DNA of 42,024 bases from an uncultured Clostridia bacterium. GTDB taxonomy: Bacteria > Bacillota > Clostridia > Oscillospirales > Oscillospiraceae. Below the pieces are notes generated by a model. It had not been told where the DNA came from and did no database searches. It saw nothing but the letters and a program-made list of their open reading frames with translations. Where the stretch lies: the NCBI GenBank assembly GCA_947165825.1, contig CAMVBX010000004.1, forward strand, positions 1-42,024. The letters are read 5' to 3'. The translations under genes and the position numbers were made by a program. Positions 5,913 through 24,004 of this stretch are shown in pieces; the stretch's first letter is position 1; each line of letters opens with the position of its first letter.

Positions 5913-5913
5913 C

Positions 5914-6083: not shown

Positions 6084-6084
6084 G

Positions 6085-6130
6085 AGAAAAGCCGTTGCTT
6101 TCCAAATGGAGAGCAACGACTTTTCGTTTT
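6085..6130 (+). terminator. Right copy of duplicated hairpin, locus 1 (probable terminator)
   Basis: The same 42-base hairpin as at 5871, here followed by CGTTTTTC, so it has the stem plus T-run of an intrinsic terminator. It would end transcription arriving from the LURP-one-like gene before the sigma operon promoter. Confidence 0.65.
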
Positions 6131-6210: not shown

Positions 6211-6239
6211 TTGATAATCACTCCGGGATCATGTATAAT
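6211..6239 (+). promoter_or_regulatory. Sigma-A promoter of the ECF sigma / PrsW operon
   Basis: TTGATA at 6211-6216, exactly 17 bases, then TATAAT at 6234-6239: a near-perfect housekeeping promoter in a locally AT-rich stretch. It implies an untranslated leader of about 100 bases before the sigma-factor start and basal, vegetative expression of the operon. Confidence 0.85.
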
Positions 6240-6347
6240 TACATAATTTAGTTTGTAAGAGTATACGTATCGCGTGATGGACACAAAACTGTTTTTGAGA
6301 GATGACCCCTGCACGGGATTCGTCGATGCCAGAAGGAGGAACCGGTC

Positions 6348-6893
6348 ATGACCGACGACGAACTGTATCGCACCTACCTGTCGGGTGACCGGACGGCGGG
6401 AGACATGCTGATGCTGCGCTATGCCGATGCGCTTACGGCATATCTGGCCGGCTTTCTTTCCAGCCCTGAGGAAGCAGAGGATCTGATGCTCGACTGCTTT
6501 TCGGTGATTCTTGTGGACAAGCCGCGCATCCGGGAGGGACATTTCCGTGCCTATCTGTTCCGGGTAGCGCGAAACAAGGCGAACCGCTTTTGGAGACGGC
6601 GGCTGAACAGACAGGAGTTCAGCCTGACTGAGGAGCTGCCCTCCCAGGAGGCGTCTCCGGAGGATGTGATCTGGACCGGAGAACGCAATGCCATCCTGCG
6701 GCGGTGTCTGAACCGCATCGCGCCCCAGTACCGGGAGGCGCTCTGGCTGTTTTACGATATGGAACTCAGCTATGCCCAGGCGGCGGAAGTGCTTGGCTGC
6801 GGGACCAAGAAGATCGAGGACCTGCTGAAAAACGGGAAGAAACGTCTCAAGCAGGAGCTGGAAAAGGAGGGACTGACCCATGCGGACATCTGA
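6348..6893 (+). CDS. ECF-type RNA polymerase sigma factor
   Basis: A 181-residue sigma-70 family protein with only regions 2 and 4. Region 2 spans about residues 20-85 (SSPEEAEDLMLDCFSVIL, FRAYLFRVARNKANRFWRRR). Region 4 spans about 120-175 (LNRIAPQYREALWLFYDMELSYAQAAEVLGC, ending in a basic recognition helix GTKKIEDLLKNGKKRL). It would direct RNA polymerase to a dedicated promoter set. GAAGGAGGAACC precedes ATG 6348. The next gene begins inside its last codons, a layout typical of a sigma/anti-sigma pair. Likely targets include the adjacent surface-protein operon (inference only). Confidence 0.93.
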   Translation: MTDDELYRTYLSGDRTAGDMLMLRYADALTAYLAGFLSSPEEAEDLMLDCFSVILVDKPRIREGHFRAYLFRVARNKANRFWRRRLNRQEFSLTEELPSQEASPEDVIWTGERNAILRRCLNRIAPQYREALWLFYDMELSYAQAAEVLGCGTKKIEDLLKNGKKRLKQELEKEGLTHADI

Positions 6894-7209
6894 ACAGCGC
6901 GTGGACGAGCTGCATCGCCGGATGACGCTGCGCCGCAAATCCAGGGTTCGACGGAACCGGCTGATCGGCACCTCGGCGGTCGCCGTCTTTCTTGCGGCAG
7001 CCCTGCTCTTTGCCGCCGACGTCTCCCGGAGCGAGGTGCAATTCCAGGGACCGAATTCAAGCATTGCCGCAGCCAGCATTTTTGCCGAACACGAGGCGAT
7101 CGGCTTTGTGCTGGTGGCGCTGGTGGCTTTCTGTCTGGGCGTGCTGGCGACGGTGCTCTGCCATCGGCTGAAGGCCGGGCAGACCGACGAGGAACCGAAG
7201 GATGATTGA
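6880..7209 (+). CDS. Small two-TM membrane protein, candidate anti-sigma factor
   Basis: A 109-residue protein: a basic, helical cytoplasmic N-terminus (RVDELHRRMTLRRKSRVRRNR), TM1 at about residues 29-47, a short external loop of about 25 residues, TM2 at about 74-94 (VLVALVAFCLGVLATVLCHR) and an acidic tail. It overlaps the sigma gene by 14 bases and has its own AAGGAGGG site. Position and topology suggest it tethers or inhibits the sigma factor, but I see no recognisable anti-sigma (ZAS) zinc motif, so this is inference. It is clearly paralogous to the protein at 8879-9280: both share VLVAL-x-AF, GV and T-x-LC-x-R in TM2, plus the basic N-terminal helix. Confidence 0.8.
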   Translation: MRTSEQRVDELHRRMTLRRKSRVRRNRLIGTSAVAVFLAAALLFAADVSRSEVQFQGPNSSIAAASIFAEHEAIGFVLVALVAFCLGVLATVLCHRLKAGQTDEEPKDD

Positions 7210-7864
7210 CAGCATAGACAACTCTCTGCAGATCGCCGTCCTGCTGATCTGTGTGTTCACTGCAATCTATCGAGCGTTCCGGAAGGACGGCAGGGTCTGG
7301 ACGCTGCTGGCTCTTTTCAGCGGCAGTTGGGTATTGGGAGATCTGTACTGGCTATTCTGTCTGGTCTTTTTTGATACGACGCCGCAGCTTTCCGTGGTGT
7401 GCAACCTGAGCTGGTACGCCTGCTACATCTTCCTGTATATGCTGCTCCGCCAGGTCGCACCGCCGGAGACTTCAAGAGAACGGCGGTTTCTGCCATGGCT
7501 GGGCTTTGTGTTTTCCCTGGCGATGGCGGTCTTCTACTATTCCTTTTATCTCGACTGGACCGTCAAGCTGGGCGAGCAGTATCTGATGTGGGGCAAAGCC
7601 CTGGACAATCTGATCTACGGGGTGTTGATGGGTCTTCTCCTGTTCTCGGCAATCCGGAGATTGATGGACAGGCGGATCTATCCGGCCCAACGCTCGCTCT
7701 GCATCGTCGTTCTGGTCTTCTGTCTGCTGGAATACGGACTTTGGACCGTCTCCTGCTTCTGGTGGGGGGATACGCTGGCCAACCCCTATTATTGGTTCGA
7801 TTTCCTGCTGACGGTCGACTTTCTTCTCTTCCTGCCGGCAGTGAAAAAGGCGGTGGCGGAATGA
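7202..7864 (+). CDS. Multi-pass membrane protein of unknown function
   Basis: A 220-residue, very hydrophobic protein with roughly seven predicted membrane helices and short, Arg-rich inside loops (FRKDGR, RRLMDRRIYPAQR). Aromatic residues are abundant (WVLGDLYWLFCLVFF, CFWWGDTLANPYYWF). I do not recognise a family, and no catalytic motif stands out. Its start overlaps the previous stop by eight bases and its stop overlaps the protease start (ATGA), so all four operon genes are translationally linked. A sensory or scaffolding role with the PrsW-like protease is possible but only from context. Confidence 0.75.
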   Translation: MIDSIDNSLQIAVLLICVFTAIYRAFRKDGRVWTLLALFSGSWVLGDLYWLFCLVFFDTTPQLSVVCNLSWYACYIFLYMLLRQVAPPETSRERRFLPWLGFVFSLAMAVFYYSFYLDWTVKLGEQYLMWGKALDNLIYGVLMGLLLFSAIRRLMDRRIYPAQRSLCIVVLVFCLLEYGLWTVSCFWWGDTLANPYYWFDFLLTVDFLLFLPAVKKAVAE

Positions 7865-8490
7865 ACTATATCGAAAACACCTATATCTGCCTGGCCGCGC
7901 CGCTGCTGCTGGCCATTCTTTGCCTGCGGGCGGACGCGCGCAGATCCCTTTCCTTTGTGCTTGCGGGCATGACCGCCTGCCTGCTTTCCGCCTATGTCAG
8001 CGCCTTTATCGCGGACACGAGCGGCACCGACCTGACCAGCGCCTCCTATGAGATCGCCCCGGTGGTGGAGGAAATCATGAAATCCCTGCCGGTGCTGTTC
8101 TATCTGCTGGTGTTTGAGCCGAAGAAGAGGAACGCCATCAGCGGCACGCTGATGACGGCGGTGGGGTTTGCCACCTTTGAAAACATCTGCTTTCTCACTT
8201 CCTTCGGCACGTCCGACCTCCTGCGGCTGCTGATCCGCGGCTTCGGCACCGGAGCAATGCATGTGGTGTGCGGCATGGTGGTGGCGATCGGTCTCTTCTT
8301 TCTCTGGGATCAGGTGTGGCTGCAGGCGGTGGGCGGCTTTGCGCTTCTCTGCGTCGTGATCACTTTCCACGCGATCTTCAACATCTTTGTGGGCCAGACC
8401 GGCGTCGTCTTCTGGATCGGCAGTGTGATCCCCCTGACGATAATGTTCCTCTACCATGCCTTCTTCCGCAGAATGATCCGCTTTGACTGA
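7861..8490 (+). CDS. PrsW-family intramembrane metalloprotease-like protein
   Basis: A 209-residue polytopic protein carrying the PrsW motif set: EE-x-x-K at 70-74 (PVVEEIMKSLPV), a membrane-embedded glutamate in GFATFENICF (Glu107), His134 in GAMHVVCGMV, and H-x-x-x-N at 170-174 (FHAIFNIFV). In Bacillus, PrsW makes the first cut in the anti-sigma factor RsiW, releasing SigW. Here it lies in one operon with an ECF sigma factor and a small membrane protein, which fits a similar release pathway (inference). The track joins this frame to 7399; the true start is ATG 7861, since it overlaps the previous stop and gives the family length. Confidence 0.88.
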   Translation: MNYIENTYICLAAPLLLAILCLRADARRSLSFVLAGMTACLLSAYVSAFIADTSGTDLTSASYEIAPVVEEIMKSLPVLFYLLVFEPKKRNAISGTLMTAVGFATFENICFLTSFGTSDLLRLLIRGFGTGAMHVVCGMVVAIGLFFLWDQVWLQAVGGFALLCVVITFHAIFNIFVGQTGVVFWIGSVIPLTIMFLYHAFFRRMIRFD

Positions 8491-8758: not shown

Positions 8759-8785
8759 AAACGCCCCCTTGCGGGGGCGTTTTTT
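8759..8785 (+). terminator. Intrinsic terminator after the sigma/PrsW operon
   Basis: Stem AAACGCCCCC/GGGGGCGTTT with a TTGC-type loop followed by a run of T residues to 8785. It is the right-hand copy of the hairpin at 8514 and separates the sigma operon from the surface-protein operon. Confidence 0.85.
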
Positions 8786-8829
8786 GCGTCTGAAAATTTC
8801 AAAACAGGGTTCGGGTTTTTTCCCGTTTT

Positions 8830-8845
8830 TGGACACTGATAGGAT
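8830..8845 (+). promoter_or_regulatory. Weak promoter-like region upstream of the surface-protein operon
   Basis: After the terminator at 8785 a new promoter is needed. The only housekeeping-like signal I see is TGATAGGAT (possible extended -10, 8840-8845) with no matching -35. TGGACAC at 8830-8836 also occurs at 6278-6284 in the sigma operon leader. An alternative-sigma promoter here is plausible but unproven. Confidence 0.25.
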
Positions 8846-8878
8846 GAGCGCAATTTTTGGAGGGAGGAGTGTCCATTG

Positions 8879-9280
8879 ATGACGGATGCCGAGAGAGTCC
8901 AAGCCCTGTATGAGCGGGTCAAACGCTTGCAGCGGAAACGGGAACGGCGAAAAACGGCTTCTCTGAGCGTCGCCTGTACTGGCACGGGCCTGTGCCTGAT
9001 GCTGATGATCTTCGGCGGAGGCGGAGCGCACCGGGGCGGCACAGCCGGTCTCTTCACCGGAGCGACCATACTGTTTGAGGGTGCCGGAGTGTATGTGCTG
9101 GTGGCACTGCTGGCGTTTATGGCAGGTGTCGTGATCACGCTTCTCTGCCTCCGCAGGCAAAGACATCAACCGCGACCCCCAGGGGATCCCCAAATCCGGC
9201 CAAAGGACAGATCTCAGGATCAGTCAAAAGGCAGGTCACAGAATCACCACCAGGAAGAAGATACGGAGGAAAGACAATGA
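8879..9280 (+). CDS. Small two-TM membrane protein, paralogue of the candidate anti-sigma factor
   Basis: About 133 residues: a basic N-terminal helix (RVQALYERVKRLQRKRERR), TM1 at about residues 27-46, a Gly-rich loop, TM2 at about 71-92 (VLVALLAFMAGVVITLLCLR) and a hydrophilic Gln/Arg/Lys-rich tail. TM2 and the N-terminal helix match the protein at 6880-7209 residue by residue at many positions, so the two are duplicates. The track uses TTG 8876; ATG 8879 is adjacent, and GGGAGGAGTG serves either. The stop overlaps the start of the 2623-residue secreted protein (ATGA), so the two are coupled. It may be a second anti-sigma or a membrane partner for the surface system; function unproven. Confidence 0.78.
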   Translation: MTDAERVQALYERVKRLQRKRERRKTASLSVACTGTGLCLMLMIFGGGGAHRGGTAGLFTGATILFEGAGVYVLVALLAFMAGVVITLLCLRRQRHQPRPPGDPQIRPKDRSQDQSKGRSQNHHQEEDTEERQ

Positions 9281-12200
9281 GAACCAAGCGCATCTTATCT
9301 GTTTTGCTGGCGGCGTGCCTCCTGTTCGGGTTGATCCCGGCGGCGGCAATGCCTGTCCGGGCCGCAAACGCCGACCCGGTCTACAACCGCGCCGCCACGC
9401 CGGAGTACATCATCTTCAATGCGAAAAGCGGCGACAGCGAGGACTACTTCAAAAGCGTGATGAAGGATTCCAAGTTTAACGCCGTGGCCGACGGCAAGTT
9501 CGTCCTTTACAACAGCGACACCAAGCTGAAGTATGACACCAAGGTCAGCCAGATCGGCCTGAGCGAATATGTCTGGGACGACTTCCGCTTTTCGAACCTG
9601 GCCAATCTCAGCGACATGTGCGATGAGCTGGAGGTTGGACTGGCCGTCACGCTGACCACCAACCCCCATAAGCACACCTATGACCTGCTCTACACCGCCA
9701 ATATCCTCAGCTATATGGACGTGGTGCTCAGCAAGAATGTCATGGACATAGGCGACGGCATCTACAAGGCCAACGGCTACTCCAAGTCCATGACCACGCT
9801 GCGCCGGGGCAACGCCACCTTCCGGGACATCCCCGCGGCCGTCTACGCCACGTCGGAACAGAACGGCGCCCCCCTGGTGCTGAACTTCTGGAACTATGAG
9901 AAAACCTACGACGGCGGCACCCGGACCTGCAAGTGCGGCGGTTCCGCCAAGGATACCGTCGTCAGCTTCTACGACGGCACCGCGCCGGAGCTCGTTTCGA
10001 TGGACCTCTCGGCCATACGCGGCGGCGTGGCCATCCCGTATTGCTGGGACTTCGGCAAGGGCGACATCATCAACATCGAGCTCACGTTCTCGGAGCCCCT
10101 CCGCTTCGCCGACGACAAGGCAGCCGGCAAGGGCGACGTGTGTGTCGGCCTGATGGTGAGCGGCCACACCGACCAGATCCCCGCCTATCTGACCAGCCTG
10201 GACGGCAACAAGCTCACCTTCCAGTGCGAGGCGCCCAGCGTGATCCCGACGGGCGAGACCGGCGTCTGGTCGGTCACCGGCGTGGATCTGACCGGCTCAC
10301 AGACCGGCGGAAAGGGCCTGATGAGCAAAAAGACCATGGACACCGGCATTCCTCTCACCTATATCTACGGCAACAACAAGACCTATACGGCCACCAAGCC
10401 CAACAGTGCCTCCAGCGCGGTGGGCTACACCGAGGCTACCAGCTATGTCACCGATATGGCCGGCAACAGCCTGATTGCCAGATATCTGAACAACTACATC
10501 ATCATCGAGGACAACATCATCCCCAGGAGCTTCTACATCGACATCCAGGATCCCTATGTGGCCCGGGCCGACATCATCCCGAGCGAGAGCTACAACGCCG
10601 ACGTCAAGCAGCTGCTCGGAAAAACCGGGATGACGCCGAACACCGCCAACTATGAGGACGCAAGCGACCGTTACCTGGGCGTGGGCGACAGCTTCAAGGT
10701 GAAGCTGTACATGAACGAGCTTTTGTACTGCAGCACCTGGCCGACCATCAAGCTGAACATCACCTACGACGGCAACCCGAACTGGAAGGTCGAGCTGAAT
10801 TCTTTAAGAAGCTACACCGCCAGCGCCACCGATGTGAGCGCCGACTGTGGCCTGGGCATCTCCAAGGGACAGGTCACCGTGTTCGAGACCGGCTACTTCG
10901 TCATCACTGACGACATGCAGGTGGATCCCGCCAGCGAGGACGGAGTCGTCGTGATCGAATCGATCAACTTTGGAAACGGGGTGACGGACTACGCGGACAA
11001 CCCGGCCCAGAACGTCACCTCCCAGCTGGACATCGCCCAGGATTTCCTCCTGGATACCGACCTGCCGTCGGTGTCGCTGGATCCCGCTGTCCAGATCGGC
11101 GGCGTCAACAATAGCTTCTACTTGCCCTTCACGACGACGGACAGCGGGTCCGGCGTACTCCGGCTGCCCGGCAAGCTGAAGCTGCAGGACCCGAGCGGGT
11201 CCACGCTCCCGTTCCAGTACGCCCTCACCGACTCCCCGAACACCCCCTCCGCCTGGAGCAGCGGAACCATGGGCAGCTACATCGAATTTAGCCAGACCAC
11301 GACCAAGCAGTACCTGCACTTCAAGCCGGTGAGCGGGGCGGCCTACAACGCTGCGCTGGTCTTCAATCTGATGGACTATGCGGGCAACGTGGGCGACGGC
11401 AGTCCGCAGTATATCACCGGCGCCGCCTTGGACAGCCTCCCGCCCACTGTCAAGGCGACGGGCAGCAGCAGGGGCTATGACAACATCACCAGTGTGGGTA
11501 CCCTTTCGGTGGACATCGACGTGCAGGACGTCAGCGACGTCAGCAAGGTGGAGTACACCTGGCAGGTCTACACCGTCGACCGGGACGCCGTGGAACTTCT
11601 GCTCGACAGCAGCTGGACCGCCTCCGTCAAGGAGAACGACGCATGGATCGCCGAAGCCGCAGTGCCTGGAGGCACCCTGTTCCAGAAGAACCTCTGGGTG
11701 CGGGCTACCGACGCCTTCGACTACACCAGCCTCACAAACCTGGGCGAGTTCAGCTACGACCTGGCGAGTGACGTGAAATTCGAGCTGGAATACTCCACCG
11801 ACATCCAGACAAAAGCCAGCCTGAAGTTTACAGAGTATGATTCTGAAACCGGTTTGCTGGTCATAGACGTCATGCGCGACAACAGCGATGTGCACATGAT
11901 CCTCTTGGTTTCCGATGAAATCTTAGAGAGAAAAGACATTTTTCAAAATCTCTTCGATCAAACTTTTGTTTTCAGTCAGGCAGAAATCAACAATGATAAC
12001 GGAGTGCGTTATACTGAGAAACAAGGTTGGTACTACAAACCGTTTGAGGACTACACCGGCAACCTGTATGTGACCGTCTACTCCGGAAATGAAAACGCAA
12101 TAGAGTGCGATGACTGGTATTACGTCGGTGAAGAAGGAAATAAAACTGCGTACAGAGACATCACGATCAACAACACCGCCTCGGTGCAGCGCTTCACCCT

Positions 12201-15200
12201 GCGGCAGGCCGCGCTCAGCGCTACCGCTTACGACGTGTTCAGCGGCGACGTTAAGACTCTGTTCACCCCCGCCAGCAGCGCGGACGATGACAAACTCACC
12301 GGCGTAGTCACGGTCGTGCCCTGGACTGTGGATTCCGAGGAGCGTTACTCCACCACCCTGGCGGGCGTACAGGTCAAGTTCAACCTGGGCGGCGACAAGA
12401 ACGGCTGGGATTACGAGGATATCGACTGGCAGAACTCCTTCCTTGACCTGTACAAGGGAGGCTATAGCTCACCCACAGAAAACGAGGCAGAGCGCGAGAA
12501 GCTGCTCGACGGGACGTTCCGGCTCTGCGCCATCGGCAGCGGGCCGGTCCAGACGATCACCCTGCCGGATTCCGACCTCTATGACGATTTCCTCTACGGC
12601 GACATCTACCTGATCCTGGCAAGGCACAGTGCGCCGGACGCGCCCTATTTCATCCGGTTAAGAACGTCAGAAGATCTCATAATCAACCTCGACGACACTG
12701 AGCCCGGCGTCCTTGAGCTGCAGCACCTGGGTCGGCAATACTCGCCGGATGAGTACATGTACATCGAGAAATATTACCGTGACCTTTCCTTCGATCCGAG
12801 CACCACGATCTATATCCCGGCGGACAGGACGCCGGTGGTGCTTTCGGTGGAGGCGATGAAGGAATCCTGGGATGAAGACACCGGCGAAAGGATCCTGGAA
12901 CCCCACGATCTGTATAATGTTAGTAACGGCGCAGGCTACCGGGGCGCCATGGACATCGTCGCCTGGAACGCGGCCGACCCGGACACGAAGATCAGCCTGG
13001 ACCTCGCCTGGCTGATGTATAAGAACGATAACCTCGAAGGCGAAAACGAGGAGTTCCTCATCTCGCTGAAAGAGGTGCGGGACGGCGACTACAACCCGTT
13101 CGCTTACGGGAGAGTCTGGCTGAATGATACCAGCAAGCGGCTGCTGCGCTTCGGCCCGGAGACCGACGCGTCGGCGGGCGTCATCGGCGTGACGCCGGAC
13201 AGGGACAACATTGTCGCCCTGCAGATCGTCTACGCCAACGGGCGGACCTCCGGCATCACCTATCTCACTATCCACCCGGTGACGATGAAGGCGGAGGGCA
13301 CGGTGTCCGTCGAGACGAAGGACGGCCTCCAGCTCAGCCCCGGCAGCATCGCCACCGTCGGCCCGGACGAGGCGACCGTCGTCTTCACCCCTTCGGCCGA
13401 CACCAACACCCTGGGTCTGGACTTCACCCTCACGGCGATCGATCCGAATACGAATCAATTCACTTGGAGAGATCCGATCCCGATGGTCGCCCGAAGCGAC
13501 GGCAGCTACGCCGCCCAGATCCCGAATGCGGATTTCTGGCACTATTTTAAGGATAAGGAGGAGACTAACAACAGCATATACCCCGGCGTCATTCTTCCGG
13601 TTGGATACGGCAATTATACCTCCGGATACGAATACCGTGAAGATGGGCCCCTCTGCTTCTTCACGGTCTACGCCACGGACCAGTATGAGAATAAAGTCGT
13701 GATGGGTACTGCGGACTGGGGCGTCATCCCGGACGCCACGCCTCCGATATTCGTGGACGATCATTTTAATGAAATGGGAGAGATCGAGGACCATGGAGAC
13801 GGCACCTATACCGCCAGCTTCCGAATCATCGACGACAGCCTCTTCTCCCGGGATGCGGAAACGGGAACCTTCCTGTCCCGCCCGATGGAGCTGGAGTTCT
13901 TCTATGGGACGAAGTATGCCGAGGCCGCGGGAAAGCCTGCGGGCAGACTGACCTTCGCCGGCGTGGAAGACGGCTTCGAATGGACGGCAAGCGAGGGGAA
14001 CAACCTGGGCATCTACCGGGTCACGGCGGAGCGGACCTACTTTGTTGCTGCGGAGCTGGAGGGCGGAGTCGTATTAGGTTATCCCGTTCTGGAAGTCACC
14101 GCTGAGGGCGTGATCAGCCCCGAGATCACGGCCGCCACCGATATGACCCTGTTCCTCCGGGGCACCGACGCCCACGGCAACACCAACGTCTGGAATATGC
14201 CCGACCCGGACGATGTATTCTATCAAGAGGCCCTGGATCCCGGCGGCTATTGGCGCCTGGACAATCCCGGCTTCGTAACCGCATGGGACGTCACCGGCAA
14301 CACGCCGGAGGCCGTAAGCTGGCAGTACGTGCCAACCGGCGCGGGCGACGACATGGGCCTGGAGATCACCTTCAACGTGCCGGTGCTGCCCGAGGCGAGC
14401 TGGATCGATCCCGATCCCGGTGCTCAAGGATTCAGCTGCGTGTGGCAGGACGCCTTCCCCATCTGGAAGGACGGGGAGTGGACGATCAGCTTCTATGACG
14501 CTTACGGCAATCTCTATAACCAGACCCTGACGCTGGACGACGTTATCGGCGACTACGGCATCGACCTGAGCTTCTCCACGCTGGACTATGTGGCGGCGGA
14601 GACCGGCGTTGTGATCACGGCGGCGGAGGACGGCGAGGGCGAGACGGTCACCGGCAGCACCACCGCCACGGCGAACGGCGTCTACACCGTGGAGCGCACC
14701 GCGGGCGGCAAGACGGACGTCCTGACCATCCATCTGACGAACATCGTCTCCGGCGGCCCGGAGACCAGAGTGTTCTTCTACCTGGAGGAGTTCGGCGAGA
14801 TGTACGAGGCTGGCGCTGAAGATCAGTTCCAGGGCACGACCTACGGCCCGGTGGTAGTCTCTTACTCCACCGACCGGGAGACCAGCCCTGTGGGCGAGAA
14901 CACGATGACCTTCAGGAGCGGGGAAAACGACGAATTTATCTTCCAGTATTACGACATCCCCACCGACTTCACCTATACGATCAGCGGCAAGCTCTACGAA
15001 GACTACGGCATTACCCTGGGCGCGCCGCCGGAGCCCATTCCGGATGAGGAGGCCCCGCTCATCGACCTGGTGACCCTCTGGAAGCAGCGGGGCGGCGGCT
15101 TTGAGCAGACCAACGCCTTCCCCGGCAGCGCGGAGGAAACGGACATCAGGAGCGCCATCGAGGAATCCGGCCTGGCCCAGAGCTTCGACTTTGTGGTGAA

Positions 15201-17148
15201 GGCCAGCGACTACTCCCCGTGGAAGGTGCTGGTGATGGCGGCTCCGCCTTCCGGCAGCATCAGCTATGACACGCCCAGCGACGTGATCGACGGCGTATCG
15301 GTGCAGGGCAACAACGTGCTTGTGGACAAGAACGTGGCAGCCGACTTCTACATCGTCGCGGTGGACCACGCGACTGCGGATAAGGCAGCACCGGCCAGTG
15401 CGGACAACTACAGCTGGATCAGGATCCCCTACGGCAGCTATCACTTTGACACCACGCCGCCCGTGATCGAGTATGTCACGATCTCGGAAAGCATGTATTC
15501 CAAGGTGGTCTATCTCCGGGCGACCGACCTGGACGACGACGGCAATGAAACCGCCGGCACGGTCCTCAGCGGCGCGGGCGTCGTGGAGGAGACGGTGACC
15601 ATCGACGGAGTGGTCTACACCCACAAGCTGATCTTCAAGGATAACGACACTGTGACAGTGGTCACCGCCACCGACGGGGCTGGCAACAGCACCGCAGAGA
15701 ACATCCAGGTGAGCGGCATCGACGTGACGGCGCCCACGCTGTATGTCACCTGGTCCCCCTGCTTCTCGAACACGGCCGGCGACGATCTGGATCCGAGCAA
15801 TCCTCCGATGGGCCCGGTGAATGTGAACGTGGTGGCCCATATCGCCAGCGACAAACCGATCTACAGCGTCACCGCCAATGACGGTGAAGAGCTGATCTTC
15901 AATGAGGATCACATCGCCGAGACCGCGTGGGGCGCAGTGGAATACAACGCCGAGCGGATCACGGTGCGCTTCACGACGAAGGAGACGGCGGGCGTCACGC
16001 TGACCGTCACCGCGCCGAACGGAAAGTCCACCGACCAGACGGTCCTGCTTGGGGCAGGCGTGATCGACAAGGACGCCCCAGTGGTCATCGAGACGGTCGA
16101 GCCGGTCATGCGCGCAGGCTTCACGGTGCCCTATGCGGAAACGCACACCCTGGGCTTCGATGAGAACGTGTTCTGCATGAACAGCGGCACGGTGGGCGTG
16201 CTTTACAACTTCAACGATCCCTTCACGGTGACGCTGACAGACAACAACGAAGCGTCCTTCCGCTTCGTGGACAAGGCGGGCAACGTCACAGTCTACACGG
16301 TCGTGCCCAAAAACGTGATCGACAACACGAGGCCGGTGGTCTCGTCGGAGGTTGCGGATGACGCCAACGCCACAAACGGCGCGGTCGCGGTGACGGTGAT
16401 CGCGGACGAATGGTGCACGTTGACCGCCAAGGACCGCAATGTGTCCTGCGGCGCAATGACTGAGAGCACCGATGAAAACGGCGACATCGTCTGGATCGGA
16501 ACGGTCAGCGTCTCCCAGAACGGCACCTTCCGGGTGACTGCGGCAGACGCTGCGGGCAACACGGCCGACACGACGTTCACCGTCAACAACATCGACAAGG
16601 TGTTGCCCAACCTGAGCTTCACCAAATCCATCGTATCGGTGCGCCAGGACAGCGCGGAATCCGCACTGACGGCGCTGCTGGACGCGGGCGTCACGGCCTG
16701 GGACAATGTGGAGATCGCGGAGGGCACCCTCAGCTACGACACAAGTGAGGTGGATCTCACCCTGTCCGGCGTCTACCCGGTGACCTACACCGTGGAGGAC
16801 ATCGTGGGCAACGTGGGTCAGGCGATCCGCTATGTGAAGGTCGTCGACAAGTATCAGCTGGTCATCGCGATCGACGGCGAGCTGACTGAGCCGGACGGCG
16901 TCATCAACGTTGACATCGGGACCCACACGCTGGAGGTCAGCGGACTGCGGCAGGAGAACGAGCCCTACACGCTGAAGCTGATCGAGGGCATGTGGTCCGG
17001 AGGTCAGATGAAGCGGGTCACCGAAGAGATGAGCATCCCGGTGGACTCGGACGGCAAATTCACCCTCACTTCCTACAACGCATATACCCTGTACATCGTG
17101 ACTCAGTCGCGGCAGACCTATCGGACGCTGCTCATCGTGGACAAATAA
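9277..17148 (+). CDS. Giant secreted protein with Ig-like repeats (2623 residues)
   Basis: The N-terminus is a Sec signal peptide (MRTKRILSVLLAACLLFG, cleavage likely after PVRA). The rest is extracellular: many beta-rich Ig-like/cadherin-like modules marked by recurring D-x-x-GN turns (DYAGNVGDG, DGAGNSTAENI, DKAGNVTVYTV, DAAGNTADTTF, DIVGNVGQAI) and PP-T/DTTPP-type junctions. The final domains resemble bacterial Ig folds such as DUF5011. I see no SLH, LPXTG or C-terminal membrane anchor, so it may be held by a partner, perhaps the SLH protein just downstream. An ACGGAGGAAAG site precedes ATG 9277, which overlaps the stop of the small membrane protein. Bases about 11805-12165 are markedly AT-richer than the rest. 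An adhesin or surface-fibre role is likely. Confidence 0.85.
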   Translation: MRTKRILSVLLAACLLFGLIPAAAMPVRAANADPVYNRAATPEYIIFNAKSGDSEDYFKSVMKDSKFNAVADGKFVLYNSDTKLKYDTKVSQIGLSEYVWDDFRFSNLANLSDMCDELEVGLAVTLTTNPHKHTYDLLYTANILSYMDVVLSKNVMDIGDGIYKANGYSKSMTTLRRGNATFRDIPAAVYATSEQNGAPLVLNFWNYEKTYDGGTRTCKCGGSAKDTVVSFYDGTAPELVSMDLSAIRGGVAIPYCWDFGKGDIINIELTFSEPLRFADDKAAGKGDVCVGLMVSGHTDQIPAYLTSLDGNKLTFQCEAPSVIPTGETGVWSVTGVDLTGSQTGGKGLMSKKTMDTGIPLTYIYGNNKTYTATKPNSASSAVGYTEATSYVTDMAGNSLIARYLNNYIIIEDNIIPRSFYIDIQDPYVARADIIPSESYNADVKQLLGKTGMTPNTANYEDASDRYLGVGDSFKVKLYMNELLYCSTWPTIKLNITYDGNPNWKVELNSLRSYTASATDVSADCGLGISKGQVTVFETGYFVITDDMQVDPASEDGVVVIESINFGNGVTDYADNPAQNVTSQLDIAQDFLLDTDLPSVSLDPAVQIGGVNNSFYLPFTTTDSGSGVLRLPGKLKLQDPSGSTLPFQYALTDSPNTPSAWSSGTMGSYIEFSQTTTKQYLHFKPVSGAAYNAALVFNLMDYAGNVGDGSPQYITGAALDSLPPTVKATGSSRGYDNITSVGTLSVDIDVQDVSDVSKVEYTWQVYTVDRDAVELLLDSSWTASVKENDAWIAEAAVPGGTLFQKNLWVRATDAFDYTSLTNLGEFSYDLASDVKFELEYSTDIQTKASLKFTEYDSETGLLVIDVMRDNSDVHMILLVSDEILERKDIFQNLFDQTFVFSQAEINNDNGVRYTEKQGWYYKPFEDYTGNLYVTVYSGNENAIECDDWYYVGEEGNKTAYRDITINNTASVQRFTLRQAALSATAYDVFSGDVKTLFTPASSADDDKLTGVVTVVPWTVDSEERYSTTLAGVQVKFNLGGDKNGWDYEDIDWQNSFLDLYKGGYSSPTENEAEREKLLDGTFRLCAIGSGPVQTITLPDSDLYDDFLYGDIYLILARHSAPDAPYFIRLRTSEDLIINLDDTEPGVLELQHLGRQYSPDEYMYIEKYYRDLSFDPSTTIYIPADRTPVVLSVEAMKESWDEDTGERILEPHDLYNVSNGAGYRGAMDIVAWNAADPDTKISLDLAWLMYKNDNLEGENEEFLISLKEVRDGDYNPFAYGRVWLNDTSKRLLRFGPETDASAGVIGVTPDRDNIVALQIVYANGRTSGITYLTIHPVTMKAEGTVSVETKDGLQLSPGSIATVGPDEATVVFTPSADTNTLGLDFTLTAIDPNTNQFTWRDPIPMVARSDGSYAAQIPNADFWHYFKDKEETNNSIYPGVILPVGYGNYTSGYEYREDGPLCFFTVYATDQYENKVVMGTADWGVIPDATPPIFVDDHFNEMGEIEDHGDGTYTASFRIIDDSLFSRDAETGTFLSRPMELEFFYGTKYAEAAGKPAGRLTFAGVEDGFEWTASEGNNLGIYRVTAERTYFVAAELEGGVVLGYPVLEVTAEGVISPEITAATDMTLFLRGTDAHGNTNVWNMPDPDDVFYQEALDPGGYWRLDNPGFVTAWDVTGNTPEAVSWQYVPTGAGDDMGLEITFNVPVLPEASWIDPDPGAQGFSCVWQDAFPIWKDGEWTISFYDAYGNLYNQTLTLDDVIGDYGIDLSFSTLDYVAAETGVVITAAEDGEGETVTGSTTATANGVYTVERTAGGKTDVLTIHLTNIVSGGPETRVFFYLEEFGEMYEAGAEDQFQGTTYGPVVVSYSTDRETSPVGENTMTFRSGENDEFIFQYYDIPTDFTYTISGKLYEDYGITLGAPPEPIPDEEAPLIDLVTLWKQRGGGFEQTNAFPGSAEETDIRSAIEESGLAQSFDFVVKASDYSPWKVLVMAAPPSGSISYDTPSDVIDGVSVQGNNVLVDKNVAADFYIVAVDHATADKAAPASADNYSWIRIPYGSYHFDTTPPVIEYVTISESMYSKVVYLRATDLDDDGNETAGTVLSGAGVVEETVTIDGVVYTHKLIFKDNDTVTVVTATDGAGNSTAENIQVSGIDVTAPTLYVTWSPCFSNTAGDDLDPSNPPMGPVNVNVVAHIASDKPIYSVTANDGEELIFNEDHIAETAWGAVEYNAERITVRFTTKETAGVTLTVTAPNGKSTDQTVLLGAGVIDKDAPVVIETVEPVMRAGFTVPYAETHTLGFDENVFCMNSGTVGVLYNFNDPFTVTLTDNNEASFRFVDKAGNVTVYTVVPKNVIDNTRPVVSSEVADDANATNGAVAVTVIADEWCTLTAKDRNVSCGAMTESTDENGDIVWIGTVSVSQNGTFRVTAADAAGNTADTTFTVNNIDKVLPNLSFTKSIVSVRQDSAESALTALLDAGVTAWDNVEIAEGTLSYDTSEVDLTLSGVYPVTYTVEDIVGNVGQAIRYVKVVDKYQLVIAIDGELTEPDGVINVDIGTHTLEVSGLRQENEPYTLKLIEGMWSGGQMKRVTEEMSIPVDSDGKFTLTSYNAYTLYIVTQSRQTYRTLLIVDK

Positions 17149-17161
17149 GGAGGGGATGAAC

Positions 17162-20100
17162 GTGACACATTGCAAACGTTTTTTGGCAGTTCTGCTATTC
17201 TTCGCCCTGCTCCTGCCCATGCTGCCTATCTCGGCGCTTGCCGCGAATGAGGATGTGGTGCAGATCGACAACGGATACATCGAGGTCAGCGTTTCCACGA
17301 AAAACGGCGGATTCCACGTGAACACCGTGGAGGGCAACCTGCTGAGAAAATCCGACAACAACAAGAACCTGCTCTACCACAGCGGAAGGTATGACACCTC
17401 CTTTGTCTCCTTCCGCGTGGGAAGCGGCGCGAACGCCAAGGACTATCTGTTCGGCGGACAATATCCCGGCTCCAGCGAGATCGTGGTCACAAAGATGGCG
17501 AGCGGCGAGCTCGTCGCGGCCTGGGCGGTGGACGGCATTACCTTCACCCAGACCATCTCTCTGGCGGCGGAAAACTCCAGCGAGCACGGCATGGTTTCCA
17601 TCAACCTCTCGGCGATGAACACCAGCGGCGCGGCGGTCCCGATCCAGGCGCGTATCCTTCTGGATACGTGTCTGGGGGATCAGGACTATGCCCACTACCA
17701 GATCAACGGCGGCGCGGTGACCCACACCCTGGACACCGAGCAGATCATCACCGACGAGGCCGCTCTCCGGAGCTTCTATGCGCTGGACGATCTGGCCAAT
17801 CCGGGGGTCACGGCCTACGTGGTGTCCAATCCCGCGAAAGTGGCCATCGCCCACTGGAACAATCTGGCGGCGAGCCTGTTCGACTTCGCGCCGGATACCT
17901 CGATGAACTTTACCAACCCCATCAACGTCTACCTGACGGCGGACAGCGCCTGCGCGCTGTACTATGATCTGGGCACTGTGGCGAACGGTGCGGCCAAGTC
18001 GGCAGTCGGGTACTACGGCGTTTACTCCAACCACACGGTCAAGCTGCAGAACAGCGTGGCTATCAACGCGGTGGCGCCGATGCGTCTGACGCTGAACGAC
18101 AGCAAGACGGCCTATGTGCGCGAGAGCGCCGTGGGCAGTGCGGACTTCGCCGTGACAGTCAGCGCAGAAAACTTCAAGAGCGGCACTTCCCGGGAACTGA
18201 GCAACGTGATCTTGGCGGTGCACAGCTCCTCGGGCCTCCGTTCGCTCAGCGACAGCGGCGCGGAGCTCGGCATCGACTACGAATCCACTGATCCGCTGAT
18301 GATCCCCTATGACAGGATCGCAGAGGGGGAGACTATCACCAAGACCCTGTACTTCCAGGCAAAGAAGGGGGACAGCACCAGCTATGAGCGCATCACCATC
18401 GGGATGTACCAGGGCGAGGTGACTAGCGAGAACCTGCTGGGCGAACGGTATGTCTATCTGCTGCTGCCCGGCGGCGACGGGAGCATTCCGAAGGTCTGCT
18501 TCAATTCCATGACGCCTGAGATCATCTACAACACCGGAACCCGTCACCTGTATGTGGCGGTGACCAACGCGCTGCTGCTGAGCGACGCGCTGGATGCCGG
18601 CCACTGCGTGTTCATGGCGTACAGCACCGACGGCAAGAAGGCGTGGGAAATCCCCTCGGACAACATCACCGTCGACGTCAGCGCGGGCGTTGCGGATGTG
18701 GCGCTGACCGACGAACTCAAGCTGGCGGTGGGAAGCTGGAAGCTGCAGCTGGAGTGGACCGACGAAGCGGTGTCCCAGGAGATCGTTGCGTCGACCTACC
18801 AGAAGCAGACTGCCGATAAGCTGAAGTTCCAGATTTCGGACAACCCGAAATATAAGAATGACACCTACGGCGTTTTGGCGGCAGTCAAATACGGCAAGGG
18901 AACGACGCAGTACCCCTACTACTATCGTCTGCAGAGCTTTGCGGACGAGTCGAGCTATAAGCAATTTGCCGAGGCAAAGGAACACGAATGGGTGGAGATC
19001 CCGCTGGTCCTCCGCGGCGCGTTCACTGCGGATCAGCGCTATGGGGAGAAGGGCGAGAACGGCAAGCTTCTCAGCAGCTACTATTACAGCGCTGTCAGCA
19101 AAAAGTCCGTGGACCCCAAAACCAGGGAGACCAACGTCGATAACCCCATTACCATCAACAACTGTCTGGACTTTGAGGGCGGCAGCATCGCCATTTACTA
19201 CGAGAACTACGAGAGCAAGGATGCTGTGAGCTCGGCGATCTGCGTGGAGTTTGACGGCGACCTCTACACCAGCGACGCCCGCACCTCGGTCTGGACCGGC
19301 AAGGCGGCGCTGACCAAACTGGAGCAGGGCGGAGACTTTGCGCTGATCCACTACGACGCCAACGGCAACCGGAAGCAGAGCGATGCTACCCCCATCACCC
19401 TGATCTGGCCGAACGTTTTTGGCATGGCGCAGACGCTGGCCGGCATGGCCTTTAAGCTCGCCTACGGACAGTTCGGCGTGATGGAGAAGGACGGCAAAGA
19501 GATCGGCCGTGTGATTTCCTTTGCGGCAAGTCTCAGCCTGAGCTTCCTGAGATCTCCGGAGGGCGATAAAACCGACTACGGCACGGCAAGCTACTTTGGC
19601 CGGATGCAGGAGCTGTGGAAGGACTGGCGGGGCGCCAGCATCTATCAGTATGCCTACCACGGCGGCCGGTACGAAAAGCTCGTTGACATCGGCATGAACG
19701 ACAGGAACAAAAGCGAAGAGACTCAGCAAGGAGTTCAGACGTCGGTCATGGTGCCGGATATCCTCTTCGGCTGCGGCGAAGGCCTTGTGGGCCTGAACTT
19801 CACCGTGGACGTCACCGTCCGGAACATGGTGGAGTCTCTGGCGAAGATCGAGGCAGCGCTGTCCATCAACACCATCAACAACTGGTCCTTCGGCATGGAG
19901 GGCAAGTGCGAGTTGATCGACGACATCAAGATGGAGGCGAAGCTCAAATTCAAGAGCTACAACAACATTCCCGTCCCGGATGAACTGTACTTCTATGTGG
20001 GCGGGTTCAAGCCCGGCCTCTGCATCGATCCCTGCGGCGTGGTCTGGATCACCGGCGCGGGCGGCGGTTTCTCCGGCCTCTACGACACGATCTTCTACAC

Positions 20101-23100
20101 CGGAGGGATCCCGCCGCTGAAGCTGATCATGACCATGAGCTTTGCTGCCCTGCAGATTCTGGAGGGGACGGCAAAGATGGAGGTGTCGGGCTCCGGCGTC
20201 AACATCACTGCCAGCAACCTGAAGATCCAGGACACGATCGAGGTCGTCAAGAAGATCTCCGTGGGGCTGCAGTGGTATCCCGATCTGAAGCTCACCGGCG
20301 CGGTCTACGTCAGCATGTTTGAACGGACGATCGAAGGCCAGGGTTACATGATCATTCTGGGGAAGAACTACACCGACTGGTTCTTCGAGATGTTCGTGCG
20401 TGCGGCACTGCAGATCCCGGATTCGATCCCCGTGGTCGGCGGCATGGTGATCGCCGCGGTGGATCTGGGCGTCAGCACCGAGAAGATCTGGGGCGCGCTG
20501 GAAGCGCTGAAGATCGTGGTGGGCGTTACCTACTACTGGGGTGAGGATTCCGTCGACTTCGGGTCCGGCAGCAAGGCCCACCCCACCTATCCCAACCTGC
20601 TGCTGAACGGCTATGACGGCGAGTGCGAGGACTTCCCGATCGCCTATGACGAAGAAAACGGCCGCACGCTCTATGCCCACTTCGGAACCAACTTTGAATC
20701 GCCCCGGGGCGCACAGATCCTGTCTGACGGCGATCTGATCCTGATGGGTACGGAGGGTGTGTTCTCCAACGGCAGCAAGACCAGCCACAGATTCAACCTG
20801 GGCGCCTACAATGGAGTGAACAACGCCTCCACGGTGGTGCAGATCAGCTATCATGCGGAGAGCCCGGAGGAGGCGGAGAGCCTGGCCCGGAGCTTCACCG
20901 TGATCGATGAGAATCAGACCGCCTTCCCGCTGACCTTCTACGACGGCACCAATCTGGACAGCGCCAACGCCAATGTCAGCTGGGATGCGGACACGACTGC
21001 GGAAAAGAACGCGACCTTTGCATTTACAGTGACGGACGCAAACCAGTTCGGCAAGGACTGGAACCTCTCCACCGGTCAGACCAAGGCGGATGTGGTGCTT
21101 TACAACGTGCTTCCTGTGCCGGAGGTCACTGAAGTCTCCACATCCGGTCCGCTTGCCGCGGGCAGCAGCACGACGATCCGTTGGGCAGGCACCGGGCTGG
21201 AGGAGCTGGACAGCATCAGTTTCTTCCTGGTGACGAGCGAAGACCCCACTGAGGACGCGGGATATCCGGTGGGGAGCGCTGTCACCGAGGGGATCGGGGC
21301 CGGCAGTGTCACCCTGACCGTACCCGGCGATGTGCCTGCGGGCGAATACTATCTGCGGGCAGTGTACAGCAAAGACGATCAGCTCAACGGCATTGTCCAC
21401 AGCAACGGCAAGATCACGGTGACCAATCCCAACACTCCCGCAGACGCGGGCGCGATCCTTGTCACTCCGGCAGGGGACCTGCGATATAACGTCACCATCC
21501 CGGAGACGGACGATCCCAATACCACAGGTTACGCTGTCACGGTTTACAACGCCGACGGCAGCGCCACCGACATCACAGGCATGACCTTTGACAAGGCCGA
21601 AAGCGGCGACACGATCCTGACGGTGGGCGGCAGCTATACCGCGCCGGTCCGTTCCAGCGCCGATGATCCGGATTCCGCGGTCAACGGCACGGAGACCGTG
21701 GGACTGGAGGCCGGCAGGAACTACCGCATCGGCGTTACGCCGTATCAGACGCTGGATACCGATTGGGACGGAGAACCGGATACGATCGTCTACGGCGAGG
21801 AGACTGTGGTTTCCGCCGGGACGCTGCCCCAGGCGGTGACTCCCACCGCCGTGCTGACGGCGGAAGGCCAGACCATGACGGCCCTGGCGGATATGGCGGA
21901 GGGCGACCCGATCCCGGTGTTCACCTCCGGCGATCTGGAGATCGCAGCCGCCTTCTCCGAGACGGTCAACGGCAGCTGGACGCTGGACAACGGCGAGGTG
22001 TGGAGCGCTGAGGAAGGCTCTGACACGGATCTTGTCTCCGGCAGCTTTGCCGACGCAGCGGAGACCGCCATCTCGCTCAGAGGCCTGAGCGACGGCAGTC
22101 ATATCCTGCGCGTCTCCGGTCAGGCGGCCGACGACGGCGATCGCTTTGTCTACGAATACCACTTCACCGTGGATACCACCGCCCCGCGCCTGCTGCTCAG
22201 TGCTCCGCTGAACGGCAGCGTGTTCGGCAAGAACGGCGCGCTGGAGATCGCCGGCGTGACCGATACTGACGCCCTGCTGACGGTCACCATCGACGGCCGG
22301 ACGGTCATTGACAGCCAGACAGTCGAGCAGGCGAGCGGAACCCTCGACACAGACGGCGTCTTCTCAATCAACACCACGATCCCGGATCCCAACAGCGCAG
22401 CGACCCACACGGTGGTGATCTCCGCCGCCGATGAAAACGGCAACTGCACCGAGGAACAGGTCATTACGGTGGCCCATCCCGGCCTGGGCGACCTGGTCGA
22501 TCTGGTGCTGATGGCCGACGGGTCCATCCCGGCGGACGGCAACATTGCCACCGCTGCGGCCGGAACCGCGCAGCTCACCCTGTTGGGCGTCACCTCGGAC
22601 GGCACACGGTTCGTCCTGGATTCGGACGTCGTCTACTGGAATTGCATCGCGGCGGAAGGCGCTGCGTCGGTTGACGCCGACGGCATGCTGACCTATGACG
22701 CCTATACCAAGGGCTATGTGGAAGCCATGGTGGAGGTCACTGCCGGCGCTTATCGGAGCGCGGCATTGACCCTCGGCTCCGAACCGCAGAACGGATATGT
22801 GGCGGTGTCGAGCACCGTGGGCGGCACGGCTGAAGGCGGCGGATATTATGCCGTCGGCGAGACCGTGACCCTGACCGCCATACCGGATGAGGGGTATGTC
22901 TTTGACTGCTGGGAGATCACCGGCGTGACGGCAAACGACCTGACCTCTGAGACGGTCACCTTCACGATGCCGTCCGGCAGCGTGGAGGCCAAGGCAAACT
23001 TCAAGGCAGAGGGCGCCCCGGAGGAGCCCGAGTACACCGTGAGCTTTGACACGGACGGCGGCAGCACGGTTGCTCCGCAGACGGTGAAGAACGGCAAGAC

Positions 23101-24004
23101 GGCAGCTAAGCCCGCGGACCCGACCAAGGAAGGCTATACCTTCGGCGGTTGGTACCTGGGCGAGACGGCGTACGATTTCAGCACGCCCGTCACGAAAAAC
23201 ATCACGCTGAAGGCGAAGTGGACCGAGAAATTCAATCCCGCACCCGGCCCGAATGTTCCGTATCTGCCAGACGAAAGCAGAATCGGATACGCGGACGTTC
23301 CGGAGGACGTTGACCCGAACCGTTACGTTCCTTATACCATCGACGCAGACGGGAACAAGACGATCATACCCATCTCCTCGGTGATGGAGGACGGCAGACT
23401 GGCGTATCTGAAGCCGGTCGGCGGGCAGGTGTTCTTCTTGGAGAATCCGGTGACCTTCAGCGACATTGACGGCCACTGGGCAAAAGACAACATCATCTGG
23501 ACGGCGGCGCACGGACTGTTTAACGGCATCGGCGGCGGCCGCTTCAATCCTCAGGGCACGATGACGCGGGCGATGTTCGTGACGGTGCTCTATCGGATGG
23601 CCGGATCGCCGAAGGTGACGGGCACCAGCAAGTTCGCTGATGTGCCGGCGGACACTTGGTATACCGACGCGGTGACCTGGGCTTCGGCCAACGGGATCGT
23701 CAACGGCGTCAGCGACACGGAGTTCGCTCCGAACAGAGATGTGAACCGGGAGCAGATGTGCGCCATGGTGGCTCGCTTCCTGCGCACCTTCAGTTATGCC
23801 CTGAAGCTGGGCGAGAAGGTCGAATTCAAGGACGCCGGCCTGATCTCGTCCTGGGCGGCGGTTGATGTGGAGTACTGCCAGCGGGCAGGAATCATCAACG
23901 GCAAGCCCGGCGGCGTGTTCGATCCGAAGGCCAACGCCACCCGTGCGGAGAATGCCACGGTGATGAAGCGCATGGTCGAAGCGATCATTACGAGCTTGAA
24001 ATAA
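17162..24004 (+). CDS. Giant secreted protein with Listeria-Bacteroides repeat and three SLH domains
   Basis: About 2280 residues. A signal peptide (CKRFLAVLLFFALLLPMLP, cleavage after ISALA) is followed by a long beta-rich extracellular region, an Ig-like segment near residue 1320, an Ig-like segment near 1670, a BIg-type repeat near 1880-1955, an InlB/Flg_new repeat near 1958-2021 (TVSFDTDGGSTVAPQTV, GYTFGGWYLG), then three SLH domains to the C-terminus (FSDIDGHWAKDNI, FADVPADTWYTDAV, FKDAGLISSWAAVD). SLH domains bind secondary cell-wall polymer, so this protein is wall-anchored. The track starts at ATG 17156, but AGGAGG (17148-17153) is only 2 bases from it and 8 from GTG 17162; I prefer GTG. 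It lies about 13 bases after the previous giant gene, so the two are co-transcribed. Confidence 0.9.
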   Translation: MTHCKRFLAVLLFFALLLPMLPISALAANEDVVQIDNGYIEVSVSTKNGGFHVNTVEGNLLRKSDNNKNLLYHSGRYDTSFVSFRVGSGANAKDYLFGGQYPGSSEIVVTKMASGELVAAWAVDGITFTQTISLAAENSSEHGMVSINLSAMNTSGAAVPIQARILLDTCLGDQDYAHYQINGGAVTHTLDTEQIITDEAALRSFYALDDLANPGVTAYVVSNPAKVAIAHWNNLAASLFDFAPDTSMNFTNPINVYLTADSACALYYDLGTVANGAAKSAVGYYGVYSNHTVKLQNSVAINAVAPMRLTLNDSKTAYVRESAVGSADFAVTVSAENFKSGTSRELSNVILAVHSSSGLRSLSDSGAELGIDYESTDPLMIPYDRIAEGETITKTLYFQAKKGDSTSYERITIGMYQGEVTSENLLGERYVYLLLPGGDGSIPKVCFNSMTPEIIYNTGTRHLYVAVTNALLLSDALDAGHCVFMAYSTDGKKAWEIPSDNITVDVSAGVADVALTDELKLAVGSWKLQLEWTDEAVSQEIVASTYQKQTADKLKFQISDNPKYKNDTYGVLAAVKYGKGTTQYPYYYRLQSFADESSYKQFAEAKEHEWVEIPLVLRGAFTADQRYGEKGENGKLLSSYYYSAVSKKSVDPKTRETNVDNPITINNCLDFEGGSIAIYYENYESKDAVSSAICVEFDGDLYTSDARTSVWTGKAALTKLEQGGDFALIHYDANGNRKQSDATPITLIWPNVFGMAQTLAGMAFKLAYGQFGVMEKDGKEIGRVISFAASLSLSFLRSPEGDKTDYGTASYFGRMQELWKDWRGASIYQYAYHGGRYEKLVDIGMNDRNKSEETQQGVQTSVMVPDILFGCGEGLVGLNFTVDVTVRNMVESLAKIEAALSINTINNWSFGMEGKCELIDDIKMEAKLKFKSYNNIPVPDELYFYVGGFKPGLCIDPCGVVWITGAGGGFSGLYDTIFYTGGIPPLKLIMTMSFAALQILEGTAKMEVSGSGVNITASNLKIQDTIEVVKKISVGLQWYPDLKLTGAVYVSMFERTIEGQGYMIILGKNYTDWFFEMFVRAALQIPDSIPVVGGMVIAAVDLGVSTEKIWGALEALKIVVGVTYYWGEDSVDFGSGSKAHPTYPNLLLNGYDGECEDFPIAYDEENGRTLYAHFGTNFESPRGAQILSDGDLILMGTEGVFSNGSKTSHRFNLGAYNGVNNASTVVQISYHAESPEEAESLARSFTVIDENQTAFPLTFYDGTNLDSANANVSWDADTTAEKNATFAFTVTDANQFGKDWNLSTGQTKADVVLYNVLPVPEVTEVSTSGPLAAGSSTTIRWAGTGLEELDSISFFLVTSEDPTEDAGYPVGSAVTEGIGAGSVTLTVPGDVPAGEYYLRAVYSKDDQLNGIVHSNGKITVTNPNTPADAGAILVTPAGDLRYNVTIPETDDPNTTGYAVTVYNADGSATDITGMTFDKAESGDTILTVGGSYTAPVRSSADDPDSAVNGTETVGLEAGRNYRIGVTPYQTLDTDWDGEPDTIVYGEETVVSAGTLPQAVTPTAVLTAEGQTMTALADMAEGDPIPVFTSGDLEIAAAFSETVNGSWTLDNGEVWSAEEGSDTDLVSGSFADAAETAISLRGLSDGSHILRVSGQAADDGDRFVYEYHFTVDTTAPRLLLSAPLNGSVFGKNGALEIAGVTDTDALLTVTIDGRTVIDSQTVEQASGTLDTDGVFSINTTIPDPNSAATHTVVISAADENGNCTEEQVITVAHPGLGDLVDLVLMADGSIPADGNIATAAAGTAQLTLLGVTSDGTRFVLDSDVVYWNCIAAEGAASVDADGMLTYDAYTKGYVEAMVEVTAGAYRSAALTLGSEPQNGYVAVSSTVGGTAEGGGYYAVGETVTLTAIPDEGYVFDCWEITGVTANDLTSETVTFTMPSGSVEAKANFKAEGAPEEPEYTVSFDTDGGSTVAPQTVKNGKTAAKPADPTKEGYTFGGWYLGETAYDFSTPVTKNITLKAKWTEKFNPAPGPNVPYLPDESRIGYADVPEDVDPNRYVPYTIDADGNKTIIPISSVMEDGRLAYLKPVGGQVFFLENPVTFSDIDGHWAKDNIIWTAAHGLFNGIGGGRFNPQGTMTRAMFVTVLYRMAGSPKVTGTSKFADVPADTWYTDAVTWASANGIVNGVSDTEFAPNRDVNREQMCAMVARFLRTFSYALKLGEKVEFKDAGLISSWAAVDVEYCQRAGIINGKPGGVFDPKANATRAENATVMKRMVEAIITSLK

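Follow-up and report, generated by a model that had tools for sequence, protein, structure and literature searches.

When an ECF sigma factor and a PrsW-family protease are encoded in the same operon, what holds the sigma factor in check, and which genes does it switch on when it is released? We considered this question for a locus from an uncultured Clostridia bacterium of the Oscillospiraceae. (By the window, we mean the whole stretch of DNA that was analysed, which is positions 1 to 42,024 of contig CAMVBX010000004.1.) A sequence-only reading had proposed an operon at 6211-8490 with a housekeeping-type promoter and four overlapping genes for a sigma factor, a two-TM protein, a multi-TM protein, and a PrsW protease. 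The four overlapping genes are there, in that order, and the multi-TM protein can now be given a helix count (7 predicted), so we call it the 7TM protein. The operon itself stands as proposed, but a second two-TM gene, an ECF promoter, and the target genes lie beyond its end (8760-25474). We refer to the first and second two-TM proteins (TM2) as TMa and TMb. The features of the sigma operon are:

6211..6239, + strand: sigma-70-type promoter of the sigma operon, TTGATA-17 bp-TATAAT (from the sequence; the same type is found upstream of sigma in relatives)
6348..6893, + strand: ECF sigma factor, 181 aa (Pfam Sigma70_r2 and Sigma70_r4_2, TIGR02937; solved ECF sigma homologues)
6880..7209, + strand: TMa, two-TM protein, 109 aa, candidate anti-sigma factor (family A1; overlap with the sigma gene; N-in/C-in charge pattern; helix-face match with TMb)
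7202..7864, + strand: seven-TM protein, 220 aa, candidate sensor or PrsW regulator (7 helices in an AlphaFold2 model; overlap with PrsW; similar genes beside PrsW without sigma)
7861..8490, + strand: PrsW-family glutamic-type intramembrane protease, 209 aa (PF13367; invariant motifs; model with APH-1 fold)

The sigma factor matches Pfam's models for sigma region 2 (E = 2e-9) and region 4 (E = 4e-10), and with sigma2 and sigma4 as its only domains in about 180 amino acids, it is a member of the ECF group. The protein encoded at 7861-8490 matches Pfam's PrsW-protease model (PF13367) with E = 2.3e-13 and 50.6 bits, well above the curated cut-off of 23.5, which confirms that an ECF sigma factor and a PrsW are encoded together. 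The sequence-only reading had also listed a full set of PrsW motifs. Across 77 aligned relatives, these motifs (EExxK, with E70, E71, and K74; E107-N108; H134; and H170-xxx-N174) do not vary, and in a structural model with a pLDDT of 92, they lie within predicted TM helices (H66-85, H89-115, H120-147, and H152-177). The model has the fold of the PrsW family, which is related to APH-1 and the CAAX proteases. Its closest matches were APH-1 chains (Z = 14.8-13.8, rmsd 3.9-4.4, ~180 residues aligned), followed by a BOS/multipass-translocon chain (Z = 11.8-11.4) and then by matches with Z = 8.3. Likeness to APH-1 is expected of the PrsW family. Searches against solved structures with profiles for TMa/TMb, the 7TM protein, and PrsW found nothing significant.

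Is this arrangement peculiar to one genome? We gathered relatives by alignment searches with PrsW and TM2, which gave 372 candidates in genome contigs, of which we took 80 loci; genomes from the same family, order, class, and phylum gave many further matches. Among 128 distinct loci, which come from Clostridia of the rumen and gut and from relatives of these, most have the layout sigma-TMa-7TM-PrsW, followed by TMb and a giant gene, so the order seen in the window is widespread rather than local. In a profile census of these 128 loci, 73 have sigma-TMa-7TM-PrsW-TMb in its plain form, and more have it with cut ends or rearrangements. Because the same order is found in most of the loci, its conservation is, by comparison of sequences, far beyond chance. 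Even the overlaps are similar: the sigma and TMa genes overlap by 14 nt in 68 of 104 loci, and the 7TM and PrsW genes overlap by 4 nt in 116 of 125 loci. Most of the carriers are labelled as Lachnospiraceae, Oscillospiraceae, Erysipelotrichaceae, or Butyrivibrio of the rumen and gut, and cultured ones include Butyrivibrio sp. INlla21 and Lachnospiraceae bacterium G11. The distribution is patchy: there was a match in 12 of 391 sampled genomes of the class, and not all of the 12 have the full operon.

We also noticed some variation in copy number and integrity. The genome that the window comes from has a second, divergent copy of sigma-TMa-7TM-PrsW (6224-8484 of locus L024, contig G000:C5); that contig ends just after PrsW, so any target would lie outside it. 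Another locus (L054 and L055, 2000-7000) has two tandem copies of the system, the first without TMa. In three loci (L068, L151, and L166), a frame change splits the 7TM or PrsW gene, which could reflect decay, assembly error, or variation. Separately, just upstream of the sigma operon, positions 5913-6086 of the window are a dispersed repeat of ~173 bp with about 40 more copies across the draft genome, mostly 98-100% identical. The adjoining 42-bp stretch (5871-5912) matches the other side, which suggests that the repeat is a mobile or recently spread element.

To see what the sigma factor might control, consider the region downstream of PrsW:

8760..8785, + strand: terminator-like inverted repeat and T run that divides the two transcription units (from the sequence)
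8808..8849, + strand: ECF-type promoter GGTTCGGGTTTTTTCCCGTTTTTGGACAC... (motif in 69 gaps, with a held-out test; best match in the 42-kb window; single match in the genome)
8879..9280, + strand: TMb, second two-TM protein and paralogue of TMa, with an alternative start at 8876 (tblastn and alignment; has its own profile class)
9277..17148, + strand: giant secreted protein 1, 2623 aa, with a signal peptide and Ig-like domains (start overlaps TMb by 4 nt)
17156..24004, + strand: giant surface protein 2, 2282 aa, with three SLH domains and InlB-type repeats (domain matches)
24059..25474, + strand: subtilase, 471 aa, with three SLH domains (54-nt gap to the upstream gene)

Downstream of the terminator-like repeat, the gaps between PrsW and TMb share an ECF-type motif with the consensus GTGGGGATTTTTCC..TTTTATGTATCTATATAAGTGAAA. 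We scored these gaps in a held-out, two-fold test, and 63 of 69 exceeded the 99th percentile for gaps that had been shuffled; the best match of the whole locus falls within the gap in 60 of 72 loci. Another 11 strong matches lie outside these gaps; wherever a gene could be called, they precede TM2 or giant secreted genes. TMb-giant cassettes that are not linked to the sigma operon have the same promoter as well. The window's own site, at 8810, reaches 24.7 bits, and the runner-up has 5.2. Across the genome, a pattern search found this one exact match and no further sites within 3 mismatches, although the genome is 73% complete and weaker sites are possible.

The −10 element occurs in clade-specific forms (such as GTATCT, GACACT, and GTACCT), and we asked whether the promoter varies along with the sigma factor. 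By mutual information, sigma residues 158, 159, and 162, which lie in the recognition helix of region 4.2, are linked to the −35 columns, and the −10 columns are linked to residues 49-58, 78, and 83 of region 2. Covariation of this sort, between the two halves of a bipartite promoter and these two regions, is another hallmark of an ECF sigma factor. These scores are from 82 sigma-promoter pairs (effective number 62) and are inflated by shared ancestry, and a sister-pair test of the covariation was weakly informative. Still, the covariation has the geometry expected of promoter recognition, and that the sigma factor reads the promoter in the PrsW-TMb gap is well supported by these comparisons.

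The sigma factor does not seem to transcribe its own gene. We found the ECF motif upstream of sigma in none of 105 loci, so this is not an autoregulated operon of the SigW type, with its own ECF promoter. Instead, sigma-70-like promoters precede sigma in 37 of the 105 loci, versus 2% of shuffles, which bears out the housekeeping-type promoter that had been proposed. Because the ECF promoter lies in the PrsW-TMb gap, is never upstream of sigma, and covaries with the residues of sigma that read DNA, it is well supported that the sigma factor lacks autoregulation and is dedicated to the adjacent surface proteins.

Those proteins are large. Where sequence is available downstream of TMb, the next ORF has at least 200 amino acids in 91 of 106 cases; 81 of these 91 ORFs have a signal-like hydrophobic N-terminus, and most are over 1,000 amino acids. 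Among 29 complete downstream proteins, we found InlB-type repeats in 11, SLH domains in 7, FG-GAP repeats in 7, and collagen repeats in 4, as well as Ig-like domains and choline-binding repeats. That the targets are giant cell-surface or S-layer-type proteins is thus well supported by their domain content. In the window, the gene for giant surface protein 2 starts just 7 nt after giant secreted protein 1, and since the gap before the SLH subtilase is only 54 nt, the subtilase is probably co-transcribed with them. It closes the operon and is possibly a maturation protease.

What, then, restrains the sigma factor? In five-fold cross-validation, profiles for the two proteins sort all 212 sequences correctly into TMa and TMb, so by this measure, they are two old and separate families of paralogues. 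Neither TMa nor the 7TM protein matches a family in Pfam or NCBIfam above the cut-off. (Matches of the two-TM proteins to DUF4064, PspM, and other Pfam or NCBIfam families were below the cut-off, and we discarded them.) The sequence-only reading had remarked that TMa lacks a ZAS motif and might be a new type of anti-sigma factor. Indeed, HxxxCxxC, which marks only the ZAS subset of class I anti-sigma factors, was found in 0 of 212 two-TM homologues. The class I anti-sigma domain is defined as a four-helix domain (PMC7406223), and the stretch before TM1 (median 30 residues in TMa and 27 in TMb) is too short for four helices, so neither protein fits the class I (ASDI/ZAS) description. However, small helical segments can suffice for inhibition, as in the class II anti-sigma factor CnrY (PMC4598750). 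Charged residues are unevenly placed, with 9 K+R ahead of TM1 and 0-1 in the loop, from which we predict that TMa and TMb form N-in/C-in hairpins whose first 27-30 or so residues are cytosolic.

Within a locus, TMa and TMb agree at positions 7, 11, 12, and 15 far more often than expected (z = 8.7, 9.7, 8.9, and 11.3, respectively). The match at position 8 is weak, and there is none at the interleaved positions 9, 10, 13, and 16. The lack of matches at the interleaved positions led us to reject the idea that the matching residues arose by gene conversion between TMa and TMb. Furthermore, across 43 sister pairs, when TMa and TMb both changed, they ended with identical residues in 6 of 21 cases at the face positions versus 4 of 130 elsewhere (P = 5e-4). 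Since the match is confined to one face of the N-terminal helix and persists despite the old split, the simplest reading is that this face of both proteins touches a common, co-evolving partner. The partner is most likely to be the sigma factor, which is the sole soluble cytosolic partner encoded in the operon. Sister-pair contrasts did not favour sigma over PrsW or the 7TM protein, but they were underpowered; mutual-information signals have an effective number of about 62-80 here and can be inflated by shared ancestry. (We set aside direct couplings between sigma 181-182 and TMa 3-4, since the two genes share sequence there.) Overall, the two-TM protein is supported as a candidate for the anti-sigma factor. 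In about 9 loci, TMb is present but no TMa could be recognised, which suggests that TMa is not universally needed and that TMb might serve alone.

Alternatively, TMa alone might be the anti-sigma factor, and TMb could be a dedicated membrane partner of the giant protein, for export or anchoring. The TMb gene and the giant gene often share a few nucleotides of overlap, TMb follows the ECF promoter in nearly all of the loci we checked, and its profile class is distinct from that of TMa. But this would not explain why TMb tracks TMa at the helix face within each locus, and in the loci without TMa, TMb is the sole two-TM protein. We consider this explanation unlikely and prefer to view TMb as a second candidate anti-sigma factor.

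The AlphaFold2 model of the 7TM protein has 7 helices and a pLDDT of 94. It aligns over its full length with seven-helix receptors and rhodopsins, with Z = 12-14, which is near the background for helical bundles, and we found no sequence homology to this fold. In six more distant loci (L176-L178 and L182-L184), a multi-TM gene lies directly before a PrsW-like gene, with no sigma factor and no TM2; in L182-L184, the multi-TM protein is a weak match to the 7TM profile (E about 1e-5 to 1e-6). Because distant PrsW genes have a similar upstream partner without sigma or TM2, the pair looks like a module, judging from gene context. This supports the earlier suggestion that the multi-TM protein is a candidate sensor.

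Could the 7TM protein, or a 7TM-PrsW complex, be the anti-sigma factor instead, with the two-TM proteins as adaptors or cofactors of PrsW? The rest of the logic, from sigma to promoter to giant protein, would still hold. The loci that lack TMa do retain 7TM-PrsW, and the residues of the helix face couple to PrsW and 7TM columns about as well as to sigma. On the other hand, the face that covaries belongs to a short helix at the N-terminus, before a K/R-rich stretch, and is predicted to be cytosolic, where the operon's only soluble protein is sigma. Also, the TMa gene overlaps the sigma gene, TMb is still present in most loci without TMa, and the similar multi-TM-PrsW pairs occur without any sigma factor, so we find this quite unlikely. 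It is similarly unlikely that PrsW acts on the giant proteins rather than on an anti-sigma factor, with sigma controlled in some other way: PrsW domains were proposed to be export or processing peptidases of large polymorphic toxins (PMC3482391), and the targets here are giant secreted proteins, but PrsW belongs to the sigma operon, not to the giant-protein operon with the ECF promoter, it is coupled to the 7TM protein, and it is highly conserved (59% mean column identity) while the targets are diverse in their domains.

We think it probable that the locus is a self-contained switch, in which PrsW, gated by the 7TM protein, cleaves a two-TM anti-sigma factor and TMb is a feedback inhibitor. 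The sigma-70-type promoter would express the sigma factor, TMa, the 7TM protein, and PrsW together, and TMa would keep sigma at the membrane via one face of its N-terminal helix (~25 residues). When the 7TM protein reads a signal, it would license PrsW to cut TMa. (In B. subtilis, PrsW performs the site-1 cleavage of the anti-sigma factor RsiW; PMC3498285, PMC4598750.) A second cut, probably by a site-2 protease (S2P), would then free sigma, and the genome does encode S2P proteases. Free sigma would act at the ECF promoter upstream of TMb and the giant S-layer-type proteins, without transcribing its own gene, and TMb, made along with the giant protein, might recapture sigma and so limit the output. 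Comparisons across loci support the gene order, the two transcription units, the dedicated promoter and its covariation with sigma, the absence of autoregulation, the target class, and the shared helix face. From these, we infer the binding of sigma, the cleavage of TMa, the sensor role of the 7TM protein, and the feedback by TMb.

To our knowledge, what activates PrsW is an open question even in Bacillus. If our proposal is correct, then this system adds a minimal non-ZAS design for an anti-sigma factor, provides a genetically linked candidate sensor for PrsW, and shows how gut and rumen Clostridia that are hard to culture turn on giant surface proteins. Because the parts span about 3 kb and the promoter could be used as a readout, the pathway could be rebuilt in a laboratory host.

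We did not find a description of this operon in a search of the openly accessible literature, but the complete 2021 ECF classification and subscription journals lay beyond that search, so the sigma factor might already have an ECF group number. How does it compare to known systems? Clostridia use SigI/RsgI, which are dedicated pairs of sigma and anti-sigma factors, for large secreted or surface proteins. Our system has a similar purpose, but SigI is not a typical ECF sigma factor, RsgI has its own extracellular sensor domain, and we know of no PrsW or 7TM gene in those systems, while all of a typical ECF sigma, PrsW, and a 7TM gene are found here. In B. subtilis, YxlC, a small membrane regulator, is encoded beside the ECF sigma factor SigY, much as TMa is encoded next to sigma. 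Again, we know of no PrsW or 7TM protein for SigY/YxlC, whereas both are present here, and TMa has no Pfam or NCBIfam match above the cut-off.

In design, TMa resembles the class II anti-sigma factor CnrY, which acts on CnrH in Cupriavidus metallidurans and is a short, membrane-anchored, helical, cytosolic inhibitor without a four-helix ASDI (PMC4598750, PMC7406223). Comparing the two by description, CnrY embraces its sigma factor with two helices, while TMa has a cytosolic part of ~30 residues, with one conserved segment the length of a helix, and then a two-TM hairpin. The closest parallel is SigW-RsiW-PrsW-RasP of B. subtilis, which also has an ECF sigma factor, a membrane-bound anti-sigma factor (a candidate, in our case), a PrsW-family protease, and an S2P encoded in the genome. 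But here, the sigma operon itself includes PrsW, which is coupled to a 7TM protein; there is no ZAS domain in the two-TM protein; the sigma factor is not under its own promoter, as its operon has a sigma-70-type promoter; a second two-TM paralogue (TMb) is in the regulon; and there is apparently one target operon, instead of about 89 genes in B. subtilis (PMC3498285). In other words, the logic is of the SigW-RsiW-PrsW kind, and what differs is the type of candidate anti-sigma factor, the linked 7TM protein, the sigma-70-type promoter, the paralogue in the regulon, and the single target operon.
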